Origin: a virus
IMG/VR virus record: IMGVR_UViG_3300047409_000436
Location: 1 to 43,632 of that record
DNA: 43,632 nt
Direction: 5' to 3' (one strand)
A program made the translations under genes and the position numbers. Shown here one piece after another: positions 1 through 43,632 of the stretch. Each line of letters starts with the position of its first letter. Within the stretch, counting starts at the first letter, position 1. The notes beneath the pieces are model-generated. The model saw nothing but the letters and a program-made list of their open reading frames with translations, searched no databases and was not told where the DNA came from.

Positions 1-164
1 GCAACCGTTGCCTACGCCGGAGTCGCAGTATAAGCAAATCCGCGCGGCTCAGCGGGCCGTTGTTACCGCGGCCGTTGACGGGACAACCGCGGTTGCGGCG
101 GTTCCGGTCCTCACCGCCATCAGTCCTACAACGGCGTTGCATGGGACGGCGGACGTACTTTGCA
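1..164. repeat. Left copy of the contig-end overlap
   Basis: These 164 bases are the same as 43469-43632 except for one base (t at 127, a at 43595). The difference is a synonymous Pro codon change. The overlap means that the window is a closed circle or a circularly permuted genome of about 43,468 bp, cut inside an Ig-domain gene. A true short terminal repeat is less likely, because the boundary falls in the middle of a coding region. Confidence 0.9.
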
Positions 165-24386: not shown

Positions 24387-24527
24387 ATGGCTAGATGGGA
24401 CTTGATTTTCATTGTTGCGGCGTTTATCTGTTTCCTCCTGGACGCGCTAAGGGTCCAGGCGCGCTTTAACCTCACCGCGGCCGGCTTGGCTTTGCTCACC
24501 ATCGGGCTCGCTTTTCCCCGCGTCTAA
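24387..24527 (+). CDS. 46-residue membrane miniprotein, two hydrophobic helices
   Basis: A small ORF three bases after the gpM-like gene: MARWDLIFIVAAFICFLLD, then a short basic loop and NLTAAGLALLTIGLAF. Two possible membrane helices in 46 residues are the size and pattern of a small holin-like protein. It is the last rightward gene of the late operon and overlaps, on the other strand, the end of the leftward cluster. There is no sign of an endolysin next to it, so holin function is only a guess. Confidence 0.5.
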   Translation: MARWDLIFIVAAFICFLLDALRVQARFNLTAAGLALLTIGLAFPRV

Positions 24528-24659
24528 CCGCTCGAGGAGCGTTAAGACGGCCGCAAGCAAGCCGGCGATGCGGTTGTCGATTTGCTCAAGCCGGCCGGCT
24601 ATGCGGTCAACGCCGCGCTCTATAGCCTGCGCCGATGTTAGTTCTATTCCGTTTGGCAA
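24447..24659 (-). CDS. Small coiled-coil protein of the leftward cluster
   Basis: A 70-residue ORF whose start overlaps the stop of the preceding leftward gene by 16 bases. It has a helical heptad-like centre (DRIAGRLEQIDNRIAGLLAAVL), similar in style to the coiled coil of its neighbour (RIERRLDKIAERLEAV). It overlaps the rightward 24387-24527 ORF by 81 bases on opposite strands. The position supports it being real; the role is unknown. Confidence 0.45.
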   Translation of the reverse strand: MPNGIELTSAQAIERGVDRIAGRLEQIDNRIAGLLAAVLTLLERLDAGKSEPDGEQSQAGRGEVKARLDP

Positions 24660-25144
24660 GTATCCTCCGGCGGCATGACAAACCTCCGCATGAATGCCTC
24701 AAGGCGGTTGAGGCGCCGCTCGAGGGCCGCCATTGCCTCCGCCAGTTGCCTGATTTCATTATCTCGAGCGGTTAGGGCTCCGGCCGCGGGCGCGGGTGCG
24801 GCGCCGGCCGCCATGTTGCCTATACACTCCGCAACCGCCTCAAGGCGCTCAGCAATCTTGTCAAGCCGGCGCTCTATGCGGGCAACGCCGGCAACGTTGA
24901 ACGGCTCCGGCGCCGGCAGGGGCGCCGCGGGCTCGAGGTTGACCGGATGGCGCATGGCGCGGTTGAGTGCGGCTAAGTCAACCGTCAAATAGCGCCGGCT
25001 GTTTTTGGAGCCATGCGTGGGGCTCAATATGCTTTTGATTTTGCCGGCTTTTTCGAGGGCCGTTAGTTGATGGGCGTCCAGTCCTAAATACCTGGCCGCG
25101 GCCGTCTTGCCTAACGATGCCGGCCGTGTTTCATTTTGTAACAT
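24644..25144 (-). CDS. Predicted DNA-binding protein with N-terminal HTH and coiled coil
   Basis: A 166-residue protein. Residues 11-62 suit a winged or MerR-like helix-turn-helix: KTAAARYLGLDAHQLTALEK, then a basic turn and a RRYLTVDLAALNR strand-helix. Residues 80-155 are Ala/Pro-rich and then coiled coil (ARIERRLDKIAERLEAV and ALERRLNRLEAFMRR), so it likely forms dimers or larger assemblies. The start overlaps the stop of the XRE repressor gene upstream. A second regulator or partition-like DNA-binding protein is possible. Confidence 0.6.
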   Translation of the reverse strand: MLQNETRPASLGKTAAARYLGLDAHQLTALEKAGKIKSILSPTHGSKNSRRYLTVDLAALNRAMRHPVNLEPAAPLPAPEPFNVAGVARIERRLDKIAERLEAVAECIGNMAAGAAPAPAAGALTARDNEIRQLAEAMAALERRLNRLEAFMRRFVMPPEDTCQTE

Positions 25145-25361
25145 GCCTGCTATTCCTCCGTTTTTCGATGCGGGCGTCTAGTATCCGCTCGAGCTCAGCA
25201 AGGGCCAGGAGCAAAAACGGCGGGACGCCGCGTTGACCTAACTCCCACCGGCTCACCGTGTTCAAACTCACGCCTAAATCAGCGGCCAGGGCCGCCTGGT
25301 TGAGCCCATGCCGGCTCCGCCATTGCCTAACCTTATCTCCTGGACTCTCATAAACCTTCAT
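25131..25361 (-). CDS. XRE-family repressor (Cro/CI type)
   Basis: A 76-residue protein, essentially only a DNA-binding domain. It has the classical HTH: VRQWRSRHGLNQAALAADLG, then VSLNTVSRWELGQRGVP, residues 10-47, followed by a C-terminal basic tail. I chose the ATG at 25361 (MKVYES) because a promoter ends just before it; a longer frame to 25400 would run through that promoter. No dimerisation or peptidase domain is present, so RecA-triggered cleavage is not expected. The best candidate to bind the five 17-bp dyads described below. Confidence 0.8.
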   Translation of the reverse strand: MKVYESPGDKVRQWRSRHGLNQAALAADLGVSLNTVSRWELGQRGVPPFLLLALAELERILDARIEKRRNSRHVTK

Positions 25362-25367
25362 TGCCGC

Positions 25368-25397
25368 ACTATATAACGGACCGCGTTTGCCGGTCAA
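25368..25397 (-). promoter_or_regulatory. Leftward promoter of the repressor cluster
   Basis: On the minus strand TTGACC (25397-25392) is followed by TATATA (25375-25370, 16-bp spacer) or TATAGT (25373-25368, 18-bp spacer). The ATG of the repressor is 6 to 8 bases further, so the mRNA would be leaderless, like lambda cI made from PRM. The -35 lies inside operator 25393-25409, so a bound repressor would shut its own promoter or compete for it. Confidence 0.55.
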
Positions 25398-25409
25398 CAA
25401 ACGGTAGAA
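25393..25409. promoter_or_regulatory. Operator copy A (17-bp dyad)
   Basis: Reads gtcaacaaacggtagaa. It fits the palindrome TTCnACnAnTnGTnGAA in its outer TC/GA and inner AC/GT arms, with the first base differing. It overlaps the -35 of the leftward repressor promoter and lies 46 bp upstream of copy B. Confidence 0.6.
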
Positions 25410-25428
25410 AATAAATTTCAGATTTCCC

Positions 25429-25456
25429 TTGACTCCATTTCAACAAATGGTAGAAT
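25429..25456 (+). promoter_or_regulatory. Rightward early promoter 1
   Basis: TTGACT (25429-25434), 16-bp spacer, TAGAAT (25451-25456). Spacer and -10 are nearly the same as those of promoter 2 (26540). Operator B covers the spacer and most of the -10. It would transcribe the small genes from 25498, leaving a leader of about 35 nt before their first ribosome site. Confidence 0.65.
25439..25455. promoter_or_regulatory. Operator copy B (17-bp dyad)
   Basis: Reads ttcaacaaatggtagaa, the best match to the dyad: 12 of 16 non-central bases pair with their reverse complement. It lies across the -10 of early promoter 1, where a bound protein would block polymerase. The same 17 bases recur exactly at 26550. 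Confidence 0.7.
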
Positions 25457-25497
25457 GCGGGGCGTCGGGATTATCCGGCAACTATCCAGGAGGCGGC

Positions 25498-25716
25498 ATG
25501 GTCAAGATTACGGTTGAGGAAATTGAGCGGATGGCGGCGGAGACGGCGGAGGCGGAGATTGACGCGGCGGAGGACTCCGTTGTTTGGAGCTATGACGACT
25601 TTGTTAACAACCGGCAGGGCGCTATCAAGGCGGACGCGGTTAGGCGGGCGCGCGATGCGAAGTTTGCCGCGGTACTCAAGCGGCGCAACAGGCGGGACGC
25701 AATTCATAACAGCTAA
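25498..25716 (+). CDS. Small acidic early protein
   Basis: A 72-residue ORF with CAGGAGG eight bases before the ATG. It is the first gene behind early promoter 1 and so a candidate lambda-Cro or host-takeover position, but it has no HTH: MVKITVEEIERMAAETAEAE is an acidic helix, followed by a mixed charged part ending in a basic KRRNRRDAIHNS. The family is unknown. Confidence 0.6.
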   Translation: MVKITVEEIERMAAETAEAEIDAAEDSVVWSYDDFVNNRQGAIKADAVRRARDAKFAAVLKRRNRRDAIHNS

Positions 25717-25722
25717 ACGGCC

Positions 25723-25759
25723 GCCGGCTCGAGGGTCCGACTAAGAAACTCGAGCCGGC
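25723..25759 (+). other. Strong intergenic stem-loop
   Basis: GCCGGCTCGAG (25723-25733) and CTCGAGCCGGC (25749-25759) form a perfect 11-bp stem with a 15-base loop, just after the 25498-25716 gene. No T-run follows, so it is not a standard intrinsic terminator. It may protect mRNA ends, pause polymerase, or be a protein-binding site. Confidence 0.55.
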
Positions 25760-25795
25760 GCATGGCAGCAAACACCCAAAACCAGGAGTATTTAC

Positions 25796-26062
25796 ATGGC
25801 AGGAACTTACACCAAAACAATCGAAACGGCAACGCCGGCGGAGACGCTACTTGATGAGCTCCGCGCAACCTCAGCATCGCTTGCGGCGCTCACCGCGCGC
25901 ATGGATGCGGCAATGACGGCAATAGCGGCCGACGCCGGCGCATGGCGTTGTGACTATTGCGGCTCCTGGACGCTTGAGGTTGTTGCGGTTGAGCTCGAGG
26001 ACACCGACGGCCGTATCTGGTCCGCGGTTGAACAATGTCCGCGTTGTGCGGGCGAACGCTAA
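25796..26062 (+). CDS. Early protein with C-terminal zinc ribbon
   Basis: An 88-residue protein with CCAGGAG upstream. The first 50 residues are helical; the rest carries CDYCGSW and, 30 residues later, CPRCAG, a four-Cys zinc ribbon. It is one of several small zinc-ribbon proteins in the early region. The target is unknown. Confidence 0.65.
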   Translation: MAGTYTKTIETATPAETLLDELRATSASLAALTARMDAAMTAIAADAGAWRCDYCGSWTLEVVAVELEDTDGRIWSAVEQCPRCAGER

Positions 26063-26073
26063 CGGAGGACACC

Positions 26074-26262
26074 ATGGAAACACGGCGCCGGCTTGCCGGC
26101 ATACTTTGCGATGATTGCGGGCTCAATGAGGTTGAGGAGGACGGCGGCCGTTGTGCGGGCTGCCGGCTCGAGCGGCGCAACGTGCGCCGCGGCAACGCCG
26201 GCGAATGGGTCTATGTTTATGAAACGTCAAGCCAGGAGGAGGATAACTACTATGACAAGTAA
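26074..26262 (+). CDS. Small zinc-finger early protein
   Basis: A 62-residue ORF starting METRRR, chosen because CGGAGG lies just upstream; the longer frame starts inside the previous gene. It carries CDDCG and CAGCRLERR, a small treble-clef-like zinc site with a basic tail. It overlaps the next gene by 11 bases. Confidence 0.6.
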   Translation: METRRRLAGILCDDCGLNEVEEDGGRCAGCRLERRNVRRGNAGEWVYVYETSSQEEDNYYDK

Positions 26263-26536
26263 AACTGGGGGCGCCGGACTCGAGGCGGAGCTCAACCGGC
26301 TCCGCCGGCAACTCGAAACGGCGGAGTATGCCGCGGACAGCGCCGCGCGGCTTGCGGAGGTCCGGATAGCCGGACTCCTCGAGGAGCGGGACGCCGCTAT
26401 TGAGCACAACGCAACGCTCCGCCGGCGCATTGTCGCGGAGGAGGAACGCCGGCGGGAGCTCGAGACGCTTATAGACGGCGCGCGCGGCGTGCTATTCCAG
26501 GCGGCAAAGCGGGCTCAACAGACGGTAGAAAAATAA
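26252..26536 (+). CDS. Coiled-coil early protein
   Basis: A 94-residue protein from an ATG preceded by CAGGAGGAGG. The whole length after residue 10 is one long charged helix with heptads (LEAELNRLRRQLETAEYAAD and onward). Its last codons run through operator C (26514-26530), so that operator sits in coding DNA. Confidence 0.6.
   Translation: MTSKTGGAGLEAELNRLRRQLETAEYAADSAARLAEVRIAGLLEERDAAIEHNATLRRRIVAEEERRRELETLIDGARGVLFQAAKRAQQTVEK
26514..26530. promoter_or_regulatory. Operator copy C (17-bp dyad)
   Basis: Reads ctcaacagacggtagaa. It lies in the last codons of the coiled-coil gene, 36 bp upstream of copy D. That spacing is ten bases, about one helical turn, shorter than the A-B spacing of 46. 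Confidence 0.55.
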
Positions 26537-26539
26537 ACC

Positions 26540-26567
26540 TTGACAGGCTTTCAACAAATGGTAGAAT
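26540..26567 (+). promoter_or_regulatory. Rightward early promoter 2
   Basis: TTGACA (26540-26545), 16-bp spacer, TAGAAT (26562-26567). It ends six bases before the ATG at 26574, so the transcript should begin at or beside the start codon and be leaderless. The operator D dyad covers the spacer and most of the -10. Confidence 0.65.
26550..26566. promoter_or_regulatory. Operator copy D (17-bp dyad)
   Basis: Identical over all 17 bases to copy B (ttcaacaaatggtagaa) and placed in the same way on the -10 of its promoter, so the two promoters are probably controlled by the same protein. Confidence 0.7.
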
Positions 26568-26573
26568 GAGGAC

Positions 26574-26786
26574 ATGGAAAAGCAAATCACACTTTGGACA
26601 GTCACCATTGACAGGGACGACGAGGATCGCGTTGCGTTCTATGCAACGGAGCGGGAGGCGCGCGGCGCCGCTCAGTTTTACGTCAGGGATGAGGAGCGGG
26701 CGGAGGTCAAGCCGTTTACGGTTGACGCAACCACCACGCCGGCTCTGGCGCGGACCTTCAACAAAGTTTATCGGAGGGATTTCTAA
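26574..26786 (+). CDS. Small early protein from a probable leaderless mRNA
   Basis: A 70-residue protein, MEKQITLWTVTIDRDDEDRV onward, with an alpha/beta feel and no known motif. There is no Shine-Dalgarno site at a working distance: only GAGGA touching the ATG. The promoter -10 ends at 26567. This gene is the clearest leaderless candidate of the window. Confidence 0.6.
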   Translation: MEKQITLWTVTIDRDDEDRVAFYATEREARGAAQFYVRDEERAEVKPFTVDATTTPALARTFNKVYRRDF

Positions 26787-26787
26787 G

Positions 26788-27123
26788 ATGGCGGGCGCAA
26801 CGTTTTCTGAGAAGGTTTCGAGGGATCCGCGGGACATGATTTTCATGCCGACGCGTGAGTTTATTGCAGGGCTCGAGGTTGGAGGCAAGGCGCCGAATTG
26901 CTTCGGGGATTTGATGCCGGTCCTGGAAATCACCTACCGCGGCGAGGACACGTCCGGCCGCTTGTTTGTCTGCTACTACGTCCGTTTTGGACTCAACGGC
27001 CGCATGAGCGGCGCGCTAAAAGAGAATGAAATCAACCGGACCATAGCGTTGACAAACCGTTATCAGTCCGAATTTATCAACCGGCTTGAGCTCATAACGC
27101 TCGGGCTCGAGGAGGCAAGCTAA
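26788..27123 (+). CDS. Hypothetical early protein
   Basis: A 111-residue protein with CGGAGGGA upstream and a start just after the preceding stop. It contains IFMPTREFIAGLEVGGKAP and beta-rich VLEITYRGEDTSGRLFVCYYVRFG, followed by a C-terminal helix. It is unknown, and its stop overlaps the next start (TAATG). Confidence 0.6.
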   Translation: MAGATFSEKVSRDPRDMIFMPTREFIAGLEVGGKAPNCFGDLMPVLEITYRGEDTSGRLFVCYYVRFGLNGRMSGALKENEINRTIALTNRYQSEFINRLELITLGLEEAS

Positions 27124-27623
27124 TGGCAACGCAAATCACGCAAGGGGAGTGTGTCCTATTCAATAGCGTAACCGGACAGGCGTTTGGGCCGCTTTGGGAG
27201 GACTATGAGGAGGCGGAGGATTTTCTATCCTGGACAGCGGAGAATGTAATTGACCTTGAGGTTGAGCTCAGTGAGCTCACGCCGGCGGAGCTCGAGCGGA
27301 TCATAGCGCAATGGTGCAAGGCGCGGAGCGTTCCGGAGGCGCCGGCGCGCAGACCGGCGGACGGACTCCGCGCGCGTATCCAGGAGCTAAAGGCGGAGTT
27401 TGCCGCACTCGAAACCGTAACGGAGCGTGGGCCGCTGTCACGCTATGCGGAGGAGGGCGTTGCGCGGGAGCGGTTGAGCCGGACGCCTACCGTATCCATG
27501 GCGGTTGACGCGGCCGTCTCCGCTTACGTCAGGGACAACGGCGATTGCGTTCCGGTTGAGGTTGTTGAGGGTATCCGCCATGAGGTTGACATACTCCTCA
27601 ACGGGATTGACGGCGCGCTATAA
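27123..27623 (+). CDS. Hypothetical acidic early protein
   Basis: A 166-residue, strongly acidic protein coupled to the previous gene. An N-terminal part with EECVLF-type strands and EDYEEAEDFLSWTAEN leads into a long helix (ADGLRARIQELKAEFAALET) and a C-terminal helical tail. DNA mimicry or an anti-host factor is possible, but nothing proves it. Confidence 0.55.
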   Translation: MATQITQGECVLFNSVTGQAFGPLWEDYEEAEDFLSWTAENVIDLEVELSELTPAELERIIAQWCKARSVPEAPARRPADGLRARIQELKAEFAALETVTERGPLSRYAEEGVARERLSRTPTVSMAVDAAVSAYVRDNGDCVPVEVVEGIRHEVDILLNGIDGAL

Positions 27624-27640
27624 ATCAACCGATTGTAGAA
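27624..27640. promoter_or_regulatory. Operator copy E (17-bp dyad, diverged)
   Basis: Reads atcaaccgattgtagaa. It keeps the TCnAC and GTnGA arms of the dyad but differs in the centre. It lies right after the stop of the 27123 gene and overlaps the -35 of a third possible promoter. It is a single copy, with no partner found within 60 bp. Confidence 0.5.
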
Positions 27641-27661
27641 ACGCCGCCGGAGGTTTAGACT
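27633..27661 (+). promoter_or_regulatory. Possible rightward early promoter 3
   Basis: TTGTAG (27633-27638), 17-bp spacer, TAGACT (27656-27661), weaker than promoters 1 and 2. It ends seven bases before the ATG at 27669, again a leaderless arrangement. A GGAGG at 27649-27653 lies 15 bases from that ATG, which is long for a ribosome site. Confidence 0.4.
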
Positions 27662-27668
27662 ACACGCC

Positions 27669-27884
27669 ATGACAAAGAAAGTAACAGGCAAGCCGGACGC
27701 GGAGCCGGACATGATAGATAAGGCGCCGGAGGCGCGCGGGCTCACTAATCCAGACTGTGAGATATGCGGGGAGCGGTTAGGGGCGCGTGAGGTTTGGCGC
27801 AACGGCGTCTATTACGGCTACTTGTGTCCTGACTGTGAGCGGGACGGACGGCGGGGCGTTGCACGCTCGAGGCCGGCGGATTGA
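27669..27884 (+). CDS. Small zinc-ribbon early protein
   Basis: A 71-residue protein: MTKKVTGKPDAEPD, then CEICGERLG and, 25 residues later, CPDCERDGRRG. The four cysteines form a zinc ribbon like those in other phage miniproteins. It is the last gene before a non-coding stretch of about 180 bases. Confidence 0.6.
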   Translation: MTKKVTGKPDAEPDMIDKAPEARGLTNPDCEICGERLGAREVWRNGVYYGYLCPDCERDGRRGVARSRPAD

Positions 27885-28063
27885 GCGGTTGCCGGCGGCT
27901 CCGCTGCCCCTTTAGCGGGCCGTTGACGTGGGGCCGCTCTAGGCGGCGCCGGCTCGCGGAGGTGCGGCCGGCGCCGTTGACTATTCAAACAAAAACGCCG
28001 GCAAGGCGCCGGCGTGTAAAGGGTTTGCTCGGTATTCAATAGCAGACAACAGGAGGCTACAGA
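27885..28063. other. Non-coding stretch before the recombination operon
   Basis: About 180 bases with no credible gene. It is rich in GCCGGC-like inverted words and contains the hairpin at 27995-28015. The last bases give a good ribosome site (CAGGAGG) for the gene at 28064. I found no clear sigma-70 promoter; TTGACT near 27977 has no matching -10. Confidence 0.55.
27981..28015 (-). terminator. Intrinsic terminator facing left
   Basis: ACGCCGGC (27995-28002) and GCCGGCGT (28008-28015) make an 8-bp stem with a 5-base loop. On the minus strand it is followed by TTTTTGTTTG, a usual U-run; on the plus strand no U-run follows. No leftward gene lies to the right of it, so it would stop antisense transcription or end an unseen small RNA. 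Confidence 0.5.
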
Positions 28064-28942
28064 ATGGCTCAGGAAATAGCAACGTCAAAGACAGACAACA
28101 ACATGGCGATCTACGAATCGCTTGCACTCCGCGGAGATATAAGCGGGCTCAAGCCGGCGGAGCGGGTCCGCTACTATGCGGAGCTCTGCAACCGCCTGGG
28201 GCTCGATCCGCTCACTCAGCCATTTATACCGCTCCGGCTCAACAACAAAGAAGTCCTTTACGCCTCGAGGGCCGCAACGGATCAACTGGCGCGCATACAT
28301 TCGCTCAGGCGTGAGGTTCTATCACGTGAAACCGTCCAGGACGTTTATATAGTCACCGTCCGCGCAACCTTGCCTGACGGGCGCGCGGAGGACGCTATAG
28401 GCGCCGTCTCAATTGCCGGCGCAAAGGGTGAGGCGCTTGCAAATGCGCTCATGCGCTGTGAGACAAAGGCAAAGCGGCGCGCAACGCTTGCAATCTTAGG
28501 GCTCGGCGTTCTGGACGAGTCAGAGCTCGAGACAATACCGCCGGCCGCTTTCCAGGACTCAACGCCAGCTCCGGAGCCGGAGGCGCCGCGGATGATACGC
28601 GCGGGCGTTGCAGGGATCAACGGGGAACAACGCGCGCGGCTTGCGAAGCTAATCCGCGAGTTGACCGGCCACGGCGTTGCACTCGAAAACCTCAAGGGCA
28701 AGATGGCGGACCTTACCGGAGCCGCAAACTCCGCGGACCTTACCGCTGTCCAGGCGGAGGACGTAATAGGCGTGTTTGCACAATGGGCCGCTCATTTGCA
28801 GGAGGCCGCGGAGGCTAACGCAAAGGCGGAGGCGGAGGACGCGCGCAAGGCTCAGATACAGCGCCATGTTGAGGAGGTTAGCGCCGCGGAGCCGGAGGAA
28901 AAGGCAGCCATGCCGGTTGTAGATAAATCCGTACCATTTTGA
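28064..28942 (+). CDS. Probable RecT/Red-beta-like single-strand annealing protein
   Basis: A 292-residue protein. The segment YYAELCNRLGLDPLTQPF followed by LNNKEVLYASRAATDQLARI, and the later EALANALMRCETKAKRRATL / LGVLDESELE block, are the layout I know from phage annealing proteins, where the LGLDP motif starts the DNA-binding core. Residues 165-285 are a variable helical tail ending VDKSVPF. Such proteins anneal DNA at forks and during concatemer formation. The next two genes (HNH and an SSB-tail protein) fit a recombination operon. The family is inferred, not confirmed. Confidence 0.55.
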   Translation: MAQEIATSKTDNNMAIYESLALRGDISGLKPAERVRYYAELCNRLGLDPLTQPFIPLRLNNKEVLYASRAATDQLARIHSLRREVLSRETVQDVYIVTVRATLPDGRAEDAIGAVSIAGAKGEALANALMRCETKAKRRATLAILGLGVLDESELETIPPAAFQDSTPAPEPEAPRMIRAGVAGINGEQRARLAKLIRELTGHGVALENLKGKMADLTGAANSADLTAVQAEDVIGVFAQWAAHLQEAAEANAKAEAEDARKAQIQRHVEEVSAAEPEEKAAMPVVDKSVPF

Positions 28943-30614: not shown

Positions 30615-31108
30615 AATTGTTTCTCAAGAATCCGCCGGCAAAAAAACTCGGGCGCCCATTGGGAAGCGGCCATGCGCTAGGATCGGCTATAGGGCGCTTT
30701 TTAGAAAAGGTCAGAGTGGCGGCCGACGGTTGTTGGGTTTGGATCGGCGCGCGCCATGACAATGGCAACGGCATGTTTGATTTTGGTGGCCGCTGTATAT
30801 CCTGCGCTCACCGGTTCAGCTATCAATACTTTATAGACTCGGACATTGAGGGGCTACGGTTGCAACGCGTTTGCAAGAATCACTCTTGCGTAAATCCCAT
30901 GCACGTTGCGCCATGGGTAAAACGGGTAAAAGTAAAACCGGAGCCGCGGTCGAGGCTCCGCGAATTCTGTAAACGCGGCCACGCGCTAACGGTGGAGAGT
31001 ACGTATAAAAGGCGCGGGACGGGGAAGCGCGTATGCAAGGCGTGTCAAAGCATGCGGGCGCATGAGTACTACTTGAGAAAAACGACGGGAGGACACCATG
31101 GGCGATAA
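30611..31108 (+). CDS. HNH-3-like protein with a changed active-site residue
   Basis: A 165-residue protein. Residues 40-95 match HNH-3-type homing enzymes (CWVWIGARHDNGNG, AHRFSYQYF, then HSCVNPMHV). In this family the His before the Cys-asn-Cys-Val-Asn-Pro segment normally leads the motif; here the matching position appears to be Arg (RLQRVCKN). Residues 115-150 form a CKRGH/CKACQ zinc finger. It may be a DNA-binding, weakly active or inactive relative. The start is coupled to the previous stop. Confidence 0.65.
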   Translation: MKLFLKNPPAKKLGRPLGSGHALGSAIGRFLEKVRVAADGCWVWIGARHDNGNGMFDFGGRCISCAHRFSYQYFIDSDIEGLRLQRVCKNHSCVNPMHVAPWVKRVKVKPEPRSRLREFCKRGHALTVESTYKRRGTGKRVCKACQSMRAHEYYLRKTTGGHHGR

Positions 31109-32830: not shown

Positions 32831-33048
32831 ATCCGTTGCCATGTTTTGAACGGCGGCGCATTATAGGGGCCGGTCTTTTATTCCAAAAAGAAAAACGCGG
32901 CCGTTGTTGATTTAGCTTTAGCGGGCAAACTCAACTCCGTCGCGCTTATCTTTTGCGTCCGTCCCATGGACGCGGTTGCGCTTGATTGTGCCCGCCTCCG
33001 GTCCGGACGTCAACCTTAATTTGGGTTAGACGGAGGATTAAGTCCGCT
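32831..33048. other. Non-coding stretch upstream of the replication gene
   Basis: About 220 bases. It is less GC-rich than the genome in 32870-32930 and includes a TATAGG-like box at 32863, but no properly spaced -35. CGGAGG at 33031-33036 is the ribosome site for the initiator gene. I see no repeat, tRNA or hairpin with a U-run here. Confidence 0.5.
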
Positions 33049-34020
33049 ATGTCAAACGGGAAACTCCCATGGGGAAAATTCTATTGGAGCGACTGGGACA
33101 GGGACACCGCTTTAGCGTCATGCTCACTTGCCGCGCAGGGCGCATGGATGCGGTTGCTATGCGCCATGCAAGAACAGGACACCTATGAGGTCCGCGGGAC
33201 CGTTGAGAACTTTGCGCGCATTCTTAGATGCTCACCGCCGGAGGCGGCGCAGGCAATTGACGAGTTAGCCGTAACCGGAACGGCGGACCTATATGCGCTC
33301 AAACCTCGAGGCCGGCCGCAACTCATTGCAAACATTAATGACGATTTGTTTGGACTATACAGCGTTACATGCCGGAGAATGAAACGGGAGTGTAACGCTC
33401 GTGAAACAATCCGTAAGCGGGTGCAAAAACACAGACTTGCAAAGGTGAAACGCTCTTGTAACGGGGTTGAAACGGATTTGAAACGCTCTTGTAACACCAT
33501 AGAGTCAGAGTCAGAGTCAGAGTCAGAGTCAGAGTCAGAGAATACAGTAGTAAATGAGTCTAGCAATCTTCTGAAAAAAGAGACTACTGATTCAAACACA
33601 AAACAAGAGAAGTCAACTTCGTTGACGGCGGTTTTTGATTTTTGGAAACTCACGCTCAACCATCCGCGGGCAATCCTGGACGCAAAGCGGCGCCGGCTTG
33701 TCACCGCGCGGCTTGCGGAGGGGTTTACCGTGGATCAACTCAAGGCAGCAATCACCGGTTGCTCACGCTCCGCGTTTCATCAGGGCGGCAATGACGGCGG
33801 CGCCGTCTATGACGATTTGTCACTGATTTGCAGAGACGCGGCGCACGTTGAGCAATTCATTTCCAGGGGAGAAAACGGCAATGGCAAACAACAGGGACTT
33901 ACAAAAAACTCTCAACGCCTCCTCGAATCACTCGAGGGAGTCGCACGTCGCGCGGCACGTGATATTAGCGGGATTGATTCAGGAGTCGCGCTCGCTCCGC
34001 GGCTTACCGTTTTGCGATGA
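33049..34020 (+). CDS. Replication initiator, lambda O-like, with internal origin
   Basis: A 323-residue protein starting MSNGKLPWGKFYWSDWDRDT; I preferred this ATG to the GTG at 32986 because CGGAGG precedes it. Residues 1-100 have the winged-helix layout of phage replication proteins of the DUF1376/O type (SLAAQGAWMRLLCAM, ENFARILRCSPPEAAQAIDEL). Residues 105-200 are a linker made of KRxCNxxET repeats and a Ser/Glu run, and 205-300 form a C-terminal domain that probably contacts the loader. The linker coding DNA holds the iteron array described below. Confidence 0.7.
   Translation: MSNGKLPWGKFYWSDWDRDTALASCSLAAQGAWMRLLCAMQEQDTYEVRGTVENFARILRCSPPEAAQAIDELAVTGTADLYALKPRGRPQLIANINDDLFGLYSVTCRRMKRECNARETIRKRVQKHRLAKVKRSCNGVETDLKRSCNTIESESESESESESENTVVNESSNLLKKETTDSNTKQEKSTSLTAVFDFWKLTLNHPRAILDAKRRRLVTARLAEGFTVDQLKAAITGCSRSAFHQGGNDGGAVYDDLSLICRDAAHVEQFISRGENGNGKQQGLTKNSQRLLESLEGVARRAARDISGIDSGVALAPRLTVLR
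33380..33495 (+). repeat. Iteron array: probable replication origin in the initiator gene
   Basis: Eight TGWAAC half-sites start at 33380, 33391, 33402, 33446, 33457, 33468, 33479 and 33490, all in one 11-bp register (three positions between 33413 and 33435 are empty). The 17-mer tgaaacgctcttgtaac occurs twice, 33 bp apart. An inverted GTTACA stands at 33364. The half-sites fall in all three coding frames, so protein repetition alone does not explain them. The A/T-rich stretch follows. This is the arrangement of lambda ori within gene O. Confidence 0.65.
33501..33540 (+). repeat. (AGAGTC)6 hexanucleotide tract
   Basis: Six perfect AGAGTC units and a partial one, coding alternating Glu and Ser in the linker of the initiator. 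A hexamer can change length without a frameshift. It is the spacer between the iterons and the A/T-rich region, so copy number would alter origin spacing by about half a helical turn per unit. Confidence 0.85.
33541..33610. other. A/T-rich candidate DNA-unwinding element
   Basis: These 70 bases are 31 % GC by count (22 of 70), in a genome near 58 %. They start immediately after the hexamer tract, on the right side of the iterons, where lambda has its unwinding element. The local protein (VVNESSNLLKKETTDSNTKQ) is polar and low in structure, so base composition could be selected for melting. Confidence 0.55.
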
Positions 34021-34444
34021 TACCGAAATGCAGGCGCATTTATCCGCCTGGGGCCGCGCGCTTGCGGACGTTCCTACCGCGGACCTTGAGGACGCTTTTA
34101 CGCAAGCCGCGCGCGCTATAGGGCCGGATAAAAATATTACGCCGGCTCATATCCGCTCAGCCTATGAGGACATTGCACGCCTCCGCGCTTACGCTCAACA
34201 ATCCAGTCCGCGCGCCCATACCTCCTCCGGCAATTCCTGGCGGACGCCGGCGGAGGAGGCCGAATGGGTTGAACAAAACCGCATCCTCACGCCGGCGGAA
34301 AACAAGATTGAGTTTGAGAAATGGGCCGCTTGGCTCGAGGAACAAAAGCGGATCAAGGCTGCAAGCGGACAAAGGCAAACAGAATTCGGCGCGGCCGTCC
34401 AGGGCGCTTTCCGCAAGCTAGGGGAGGGGCTCGGCAATGATTGA
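33881..34444 (+). CDS. Probable helicase-loader-type replication protein
   Basis: A 187-residue protein. I chose the ATG at 33881 (MANNRDLQKT) for its GGGGAG site at the right spacing; the first 140 bases overlap the end of the initiator in another frame. The middle (DVPTADLEDAFTQAARAIGP, then NITPAHIRSAYEDIARL) is helical, and the C-terminal part carries a coiled coil around KWAAWLEEQKRIKA. Following an O-like initiator, it sits in the place of lambda P. No AAA+ motif is present, so the loader call rests on context. Confidence 0.55.
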   Translation: MANNRDLQKTLNASSNHSRESHVARHVILAGLIQESRSLRGLPFCDDTEMQAHLSAWGRALADVPTADLEDAFTQAARAIGPDKNITPAHIRSAYEDIARLRAYAQQSSPRAHTSSGNSWRTPAEEAEWVEQNRILTPAENKIEFEKWAAWLEEQKRIKAASGQRQTEFGAAVQGAFRKLGEGLGND

Positions 34445-35622: not shown

Positions 35623-36844
35623 GCTCACGCCGGCGGAGGCGCTTGAGCTTTTCTATGACTGGACGTTCTGGGCGCGTCCTAACCAACTCCCGCCGGCCGG
35701 CAATTGGCAAAATTGGCTTTTGTGCGCGGGGCGGGGATTTGGCAAAACGCGCTCCGGCGCAGAGTGGATCCGCGCGGAGGCGGTCCAGGGCGGCCGGCGC
35801 CGGCTTGCACTTGTTGCGCCTACCGCGGCCGATGCGCGGGACGTCATGGTTGAGGGAGAATCCGGAGTCCTAGCCATCAGTCCTCCGCGGGAACGGCCGC
35901 TATATGAGCCGTCTAAACGCCGCTTGACCTGGCCAAACGGAGCCATGGCTACCGTCTACTCAGCGGATGAGCCGGAACGCCTCCGCGGGCCGCAACACGA
36001 CGGCGCCTGGTGCGATGAGATTGCCTCATGGCGGTTTGCGGACGATGCCTGGGCAAATCTGCAATTTGGGCTCCGGCTTGGACAGACACCGCGCTCCGTT
36101 GTCACAACAACGCCGAAACCAACGCGGCTAATCAAAGAGCTACTTACCTCCGGCTCAACCGTTATCACGCGCGGCTCAACCTATGAAAACCGCGGCAACC
36201 TTGCGGACAGCTTTATCGAAGCCGTTAGGGCGCGCTATGAGGGGACGCGGTTAGGGCGCCAGGAGCTCTATGCCGAAATCCTCGAGGATGCGGAGGGCGC
36301 TTTGTGGAAACGCGATGAGCTCGAGCGTAACCGCGTCCGCAAGGCGCCGGAGCTCAAGCGGGTTGTTGTTGCATGTGATCCGGCCGCAACCTCAACTGAG
36401 GAGGCCAACGAGACAGGCATCATTGTTGCCGGCGTATCCAGGGAGGGCCACGGCTATGTCCTGGATGATAAGACAACGCGCGCCTCACCGCTCAAATGGG
36501 CGGAGGCGGCCGTTACCGCTTACCACATGTTTCGAGCGGACCGGCTTGTAGCTGAGGTCAATCAAGGCGGGGAAATGGTCCGGTCTACTATTGCAACTGT
36601 AGACGCAAAGGTTGCATATAAAGCCGTCCATGCTACGCGCGGCAAGCAAACGCGGGCGGAGCCGGTTGCGGCGCTCTATGAGCAAGGCAAGGTTCACCAT
36701 GTCGGAATGTTTGCCGACCTTGAGGATCAACTCTGTCAATGGACTCCTGGCGCGCCGTCTCCGGACCGGCTTGACGCGCTTGTCTGGGCACTAACAGAGC
36801 TCATGCTTGACGCGGAAAAACCGCGGACGGTTGTTACTTTTTGA
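35549..36844 (+). CDS. terL: Terminase large subunit
   Basis: A 431-residue packaging motor from the ATG at 35549. Walker A is AGRGFGKT (residues 60-67) within GRGFGKTRSGAEW, and Walker B ends at Asp156-Glu157 (GAWCDEI). The nuclease part has Asp277 (VVACDPAATS), an acidic AEVNQGG strand, and Asp409 (RLDALVWAL), as expected for an RNase H-type centre with two metals. The form matches COG5323-like terminases known from GTA and related phages. It overlaps the small-subunit gene and is followed by the portal. Confidence 0.92.
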   Translation: MLGINLDQNLLTSLELEERETFLAELTPAEALELFYDWTFWARPNQLPPAGNWQNWLLCAGRGFGKTRSGAEWIRAEAVQGGRRRLALVAPTAADARDVMVEGESGVLAISPPRERPLYEPSKRRLTWPNGAMATVYSADEPERLRGPQHDGAWCDEIASWRFADDAWANLQFGLRLGQTPRSVVTTTPKPTRLIKELLTSGSTVITRGSTYENRGNLADSFIEAVRARYEGTRLGRQELYAEILEDAEGALWKRDELERNRVRKAPELKRVVVACDPAATSTEEANETGIIVAGVSREGHGYVLDDKTTRASPLKWAEAAVTAYHMFRADRLVAEVNQGGEMVRSTIATVDAKVAYKAVHATRGKQTRAEPVAALYEQGKVHHVGMFADLEDQLCQWTPGAPSPDRLDALVWALTELMLDAEKPRTVVTF

Positions 36845-43355: not shown

Positions 43356-43632
43356 ATGGCAAACGCAAATCCTCCAACGGGGACATGGCCGGCCGCGGTT
43401 GCGGCCGGCTACCTGGGCATAGCGGTTGATCCGACGCCTAATCTCAATTACACGGTAGCCGGCGTGGTGCAACCGTTGCCTACGCCGGAGTCGCAGTATA
43501 AGCAAATCCGCGCGGCTCAGCGGGCCGTTGTTACCGCGGCCGTTGACGGGACAACCGCGGTTGCGGCGGTTCCGGTCCTCACCGCCATCAGTCCAACAAC
43601 GGCGTTGCATGGGACGGCGGACGTACTTTGCA
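43356..43632 (+). CDS. Ig-like virion protein, 5' part of gene split by contig ends
   Basis: This part starts MANANPPTGTWPAAVAAGYL with GGAGTAG upstream and runs off the end of the window in frame. Joined to 2-367 it gives a 159-residue protein. The N-terminal 45 residues are a small domain; the middle is linker (YKQIRAAQRAVVTAAVDGTT) before the IPT-like domain. Confidence 0.75.
   Translation, partial: MANANPPTGTWPAAVAAGYLGIAVDPTPNLNYTVAGVVQPLPTPESQYKQIRAAQRAVVTAAVDGTTAVAAVPVLTAISPTTALHGTADVLC
43469..43632. repeat. Right copy of the contig-end overlap
   Basis: Same as 1-164 except for a at 43595 (t at 127). With this overlap removed the circular genome is about 43,468 bp. The single difference suggests minor population variants in the sample, not a separate repeat. 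Confidence 0.9.

Follow-up and report, generated by a model that had tools for sequence, protein, structure and literature searches.

Lambda-type immunity, as known from phages 434 and P22, combines an HTH_3-type repressor carrying a C-terminal oligomerisation/cleavage domain with divergent repressor and early promoters, on which operators in clusters of three, with half-sites one DNA turn apart, are placed. In phage lambda, the cI mRNA made from PRM is leaderless. A different arrangement is found in cluster A mycobacteriophages (L5, TipsytheTRex), whose repressors are two-domain monomers (183 residues in L5) recognizing asymmetric 13-mers at more than twenty sites, the stoperators, which are repeated, all point along transcription and are in some cases located at gene ends (PMC9283540). 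We analyzed a 43.6-kb stretch of DNA from an uncultured phage lineage (43,632 nucleotides, hereafter the window), and the kind of system found there is already well known, that of a familiar phage switch. As in 434 and P22, a divergent gene for an HTH repressor is accompanied by repeated near-dyads that overlap early and repressor promoters, with half-sites one turn apart. Unlike in those phages, the operators are not in clusters of three but spread over 2.2 kb at further promoters, the repressor is devoid of the C-terminal domain responsible for cooperativity, and the integrase of a temperate phage was found neither in the window nor in its relative.

This relative, IMGVR_UViG_3300045110_000090 (G001), was the only close one returned by a portal search (portal 79% identical), and in the segments that were compared the two genomes are collinear. 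The features of the switch region are listed below in window coordinates.

24644..25144, minus strand: gene of a 166-aa protein, directly behind the repressor gene, 42% identical over 91 aa in G001
25131..25361, minus strand: gene of the 76-aa XRE/HTH_3 putative repressor, presumed ligand of operators A to E (Pfam HTH_31 9.7e-11, HTH_3 1.6e-9)
25368..25397, minus strand: repressor promoter, TTGACC-18-TATAGT (or 16-TATATA), followed after 6-8 nt by the ATG at 25361, same layout in G001
25394..25408, plus strand: operator A, TCAACAAACGGTAGA, overlapping the repressor promoter -35, 46 bp upstream of B
25429..25456, plus strand: early promoter PB, TTGACT-16-TAGAAT, same hexamers and spacer in G001
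25440..25454, plus strand: operator B, TCAACAAATGGTAGA, spanning the PB spacer and -10
25498..25716, plus strand: first early gene behind PB, 72 aa, function unassigned
26515..26529, plus strand: operator C, TCAACAGACGGTAGA, within the last codons of a 94-aa gene, 36 bp upstream of D
26540..26567, plus strand: promoter PD, TTGACA-16-TAGAAT, 6 nt from the -10 to the ATG at 26574 (leaderless geometry)
26551..26565, plus strand: operator D, TCAACAAATGGTAGA, spanning the PD spacer and -10
26574..26786, plus strand: 70-aa gene directly behind PD, function unassigned
27625..27639, plus strand: operator E, TCAACCGATTGTAGA, directly after the stop of a 166-aa gene and upstream of the 71-aa gene
27633..27661, plus strand: candidate weak promoter of the 71-aa gene, TTGTAG-17-TAGACT by eye, 7 nt to the ATG at 27669, its -35 overlapped by E
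27669..27884, plus strand: Cys-rich gene of 71 aa downstream of E, with a homologue in G001

The sequence TCAAC-N5-GTAGA occurs as five exact copies in the whole window (15-mers starting at 25394, 25440, 26515, 26551 and 27625), with no sixth anywhere in the 43.6 kb. All five dyads fitting TCnAC-N5-GTnGA that the first-pass annotation had reported were thus recovered, its starts being those of a 17-mer that begins one base earlier. For this looser motif, 0.32 occurrences are expected in the window by chance, and none of 100 shuffles contained at least five. Since the motif was chosen post hoc, we added a family-wise test over every X5-N(3..8)-Y5 word; in 25 Markov simulations, a dyad-like word never recurred even four times within 2.4 kb, against the five observed. 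With a position weight matrix, the weakest of the five copies scored 23.9 bits and the next-best place in the window 13.9. The repeated site described earlier as a 17-bp dyad is therefore real, but its symmetric core measures 15 bp and is imperfect: the halves read TCAAC and, on the other strand, TCTAC, so that four of five base pairs are symmetric, with an A at the middle of each half (positions 3 and 13). Only in B and D does the symmetry extend to the outermost pair of the 17-mer, all five copies point in the same direction, and the half-site centres are 10 bp apart, which corresponds to one DNA turn.

A scan of positions 24400-28200 with a sigma-70-like consensus detected three sites only, namely PB, PD and the repressor promoter, and operators B, D and A are placed on all three. 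As first described, B and D share one sequence (over 20 bp) and sit on the -10 of two near-identical promoters with 16-bp spacers, while A overlaps the TTGACC hexamer of the repressor promoter. The PB and PD hexamers are near consensus (10/12 and 11/12 matches, respectively). Sigma-54-like or alternative-sigma promoters were also considered and rejected, because the bases misfit and ordinary hexamers are present. The candidate promoter at E was missed by the consensus scan of 24400-28200 and was for this reason rated as weak. Its -10/start region, TAGA(C/A)TAC(A/G)CGCCATGA, is common to the window and G001. No Shine-Dalgarno sequence precedes the repressor gene which, together with the 6-8 nt separating its promoter from the ATG, indicates that the repressor mRNA is probably leaderless, as for lambda cI. 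Start codons only 6-8 nt behind a -10 hexamer were observed at 25361, 26574 and 27669 of the window as well as at 1543 of L023 and at 1449 and 3405 of L042 (loci of the relative), which suggests leaderless mRNAs in both phages.

The disappearance of the dyad from the same promoters in related phages would have spoken against a regulatory role, but A, B and E all persist in G001, the single relative recovered. The counterpart of A (A', TCAACAACTCGTAGA) is at 34281 and that of B (B', TCACCATCGTGTAGA) at 34327, so that the 46-bp distance is the same; B' sits on TTGACT-16-TAGAAT and carries one mismatch (TCACC). E' (TCAACGCTCTGTAGA) is at 36175, ahead of the homologue of the 71-aa gene. C and D are absent from G001. 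In the alignment of the two genomes, the half-sites and promoter hexamers are kept while five spacer bases changed, as expected of operators; the N5 segments of the two phages read AAACG/AACTC, AAATG/ATCGT and CGATT/GCTCT. Since one relative was found, this conservation is that of two phages. One further exact site, F' (TCAACGACGTGTAGAATG), is located at 1520 of G001; base composition predicts about 0.05 such sites per genome. F' lay outside the definition of the motif, yet the same motif search found it. Behind F' come TAGAATG and, 8 nt after the end of the core, the ATG that opens a 191-aa gene; this segment, located between terminase and portal, is missing from the window. The presence of F' at an acquired gene suggests a route by which such genes are brought under the control of the phage. 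Altogether, A to E are most likely, as judged from sequence, a real operator set through which one regulator acts on the early promoters and on the promoter of the repressor itself.

The likely ligand of A to E is the 76-aa XRE protein, whose gene adjoins the operators and diverges from the early operon. Its HTH domain is above the curated Pfam cut-offs (HTH_31, 42.3 bits for a cut-off of 27; HTH_3, 38.1 bits for a cut-off of 23), and profile matches included the 434 repressor and the P22 C2 repressor. AlphaFold2 predicted an HTH fold of four helices, the fourth being long (residues 49-74), with a pLDDT of 84.9; neither Pfam nor this model revealed a C-terminal oligomerisation/cleavage domain in addition to the one HTH and the one long helix. 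The best Foldseek matches, with the HTH type at the top, were small XRE regulators with weak E-values of about 0.006-0.04. The protein resembles 434 Cro, the C proteins of restriction-modification systems, SinR and HipB in size and fold, and differs from them by the long fourth helix of its model. The G001 repressor is 66% identical. In the known structure of the 434 repressor, Q28, Q29 and Q33 contact bases. The corresponding residues here, L33, N34 and R38, are identical in both phages, which fits the unchanged half-sites, and N21 and S32 differ.

We consider it likely that A to E are the operators of one dimeric, 434/P22-like HTH repressor, in all likelihood the 76-aa protein, which represses the early promoters and its own. 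This reading builds on the observed sites, consensus promoters, conservation and predicted HTH fold, from which we infer binding and repression by the 76-aa protein as well as its dimerisation and the geometry of the dimer. Each monomer would read one TCwAC half-site and, as the half-site centres are one turn apart, both recognition helices would lie on one face of the DNA. A dimer bound at B or D would cover the -10 and spacer of PB or PD and block RNA polymerase, a dimer at E would block the weak promoter before the 71-aa gene (27669), and a dimer at A would cover the repressor's own -35, leading to autorepression; in this scheme the transcripts of the repressor, 70-aa and 71-aa genes would be leaderless. 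The orientation of the sites would be set by the polymerase rather than by the repressor, which may accept A as well as T as the central base of each half. On the plus strand, the right half GTAGA would double as part of the -10 TAGAAT, and at A the -35 TTGAC would be provided by the left half, read on the other strand. This overlap with -10 and -35 would explain the fixed orientation, which C would be expected to keep as a duplicate. Repressor and polymerase could thus read one and the same operator, in which the promoter would determine the base at the free centre of each half-site. Counting against this reading, A and C lie upstream of PB and PD without covering them, and E is without a strong promoter.

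Similarity between the A-B and C-D cassettes is not confined to the dyads, the alignment having one 11-base and one 1-base gap, and only one of 2000 shuffles matched or surpassed the alignment of the segment that separates the dyads. This alignment identifies C-D as a second copy of A-B that underwent a short deletion, and C would have arrived together with D. The reported distances of 46 bp (A to B) and 36 bp (C to D) are correct and amount to about 4.4 and 3.4 turns, so that the paired sites are not on the same face of the DNA. The cooperative binding with looping proposed in the first-pass annotation finds no support here, given these different faces and a repressor that has no oligomerisation domain. 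Likewise, the ten-base difference, taken earlier as a sign of looping or phasing, is no evidence for it, because an indel in the duplicated cassette explains the difference, and this reading was rejected. An alternative is that the XRE protein is a dual regulator which activates from A and C, near -62 of PB and -52 of PD, and represses from B, D and E. Neither A nor C covers a forward core promoter, and the distance between A' and B' is kept at 46 bp in G001. This alternative is unlikely, because promoters with hexamers as near to consensus as those of PB and PD have no need of an activator, A is accounted for by the repressor promoter, and the A-B and C-D distances are unequal.

MerR-type regulators bind within long spacers of 19-20 bp. 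This bears on the possibility that the ligand is the second product of the repressor operon, the 166-aa protein (24644-25144), alone or with the XRE protein. Its gene lies directly behind that of the repressor, with which it is probably cotranscribed, its N-terminus looks MerR-like by eye, and it is kept in G001. We regard this possibility as quite unlikely, since the spacers here are of 16 bp and the protein is conserved at 42% over 91 aa, compared with 66% for the XRE protein, although the half-sites are nearly unchanged. Moreover, it had no match in PHROGs and none above the cut-off in Pfam.

Every site in both phages points along transcription, and C and E are at gene ends, which raises the possibility that directional repressor sites in short intergenic gaps also stop elongating polymerase, as known for the stoperators of cluster A mycobacteriophages (PMC9283540). 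The likeness ends with these repeated sites pointing along transcription: the locus departs from stoperators in repressor architecture, site symmetry and site number, with a single HTH, a near-dyad and five sites, and the orientation is accounted for by the overlap with -10 and -35, making such a role improbable. That the five same-direction copies are iterons binding a replication initiator, the O-like protein encoded at 32986-34020, is hardly credible, as the copies lie in promoters dispersed over 2.2 kb and, instead of forming a tandem array beside the initiator gene, are 5 kb away from it, and G001 has one site at an acquired gene in its late region. A wider scenario, which we find doubtful as a whole, would associate a one-domain, non-cooperative repressor and dispersed directional operators with a lineage devoid of integrase, where gained genes, such as that of 191 aa in G001, join the regulon through an operator fused to a leaderless -10, and where C and E also stop elongating polymerase.

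Further relatives were sought with the repressor, as a single protein and as full and trimmed alignments in IMG/VR, and in GTDB genomes, INPHARED and plasmids, and G001 was the only true one. The other matches were generic HTH proteins with no dyad alongside and were discarded. A scan of IMG/VR for the exact 20-mer gave no match. Pairs of TCAAC-N5-GTAGA 10-40 bp apart matched 14 times in IMG/VR, mostly in what resembled coding or tandem repeats; neither the repressor nor the downstream genes had a homologue beside any of the 14, apart from one weak match to the HNH-type gene. The 72-aa protein at 31098, used as a query, retrieved G001 only, the relatives of the RecT-side gene had no dyad near their regulators, and Rfam had no match in 25300-28200. 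For this lineage, which is without a close match among the phage and plasmid records covered by the searches, the analysis provides a predicted repressor, its operator sequence and its early promoters.

Both records look complete based on their terminal repeats. In G001 the terminal repeat is exact and measures 127 bp; the ends of the window (1-160 and 43470-43632) repeat over about 160 bp with one mismatch, so that the window is probably a complete, circularly permuted genome, though its record is classed as without end repeats. In neither of the two apparently complete genomes was a tyrosine integrase (PF00589) or a serine recombinase or resolvase (PF00239) detected, and no partition genes were present among the proteins scanned against PHROGs and Pfam. 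The role of the repressor may thus be in lysogeny or in a transient early shut-off. It may keep up an unintegrated lysogen, belong to a phage that integrates by an unrecognised route, represent a relic or have a Cro-like role in the lytic cycle.

Several other elements were observed. Between the first two early genes, a hairpin (GCCGGCTCGAG...CTCGAGCCGGC) at 25716-25785 of the window and 1775-1850 of L042 in the relative is almost letter-identical in both phages while the flanking genes diverged (RNA fold z of about -3.5 and -3.2), possibly reflecting an RNA signal or a recent exchange. Before the RecT-side gene, an A-run followed by a strong hairpin (window 27988-28016, L042 3719-3745) is kept with a changed stem sequence, and it is terminator-like on the minus strand, although the nearby genes are all on the plus strand. 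The name of the "RecT" protein itself (28064-28942) is a label and not a finding, as there was no PHROG match and only a sub-threshold Pfam match to GemA; its relatives include Campylobacter phage proteins. Finally, a tandem GAGTCA repeat at 33501-33530 encodes a Ser-Glu run in the O-like replication gene, and its position within an initiator gene recalls, by analogy, the lambda ori.
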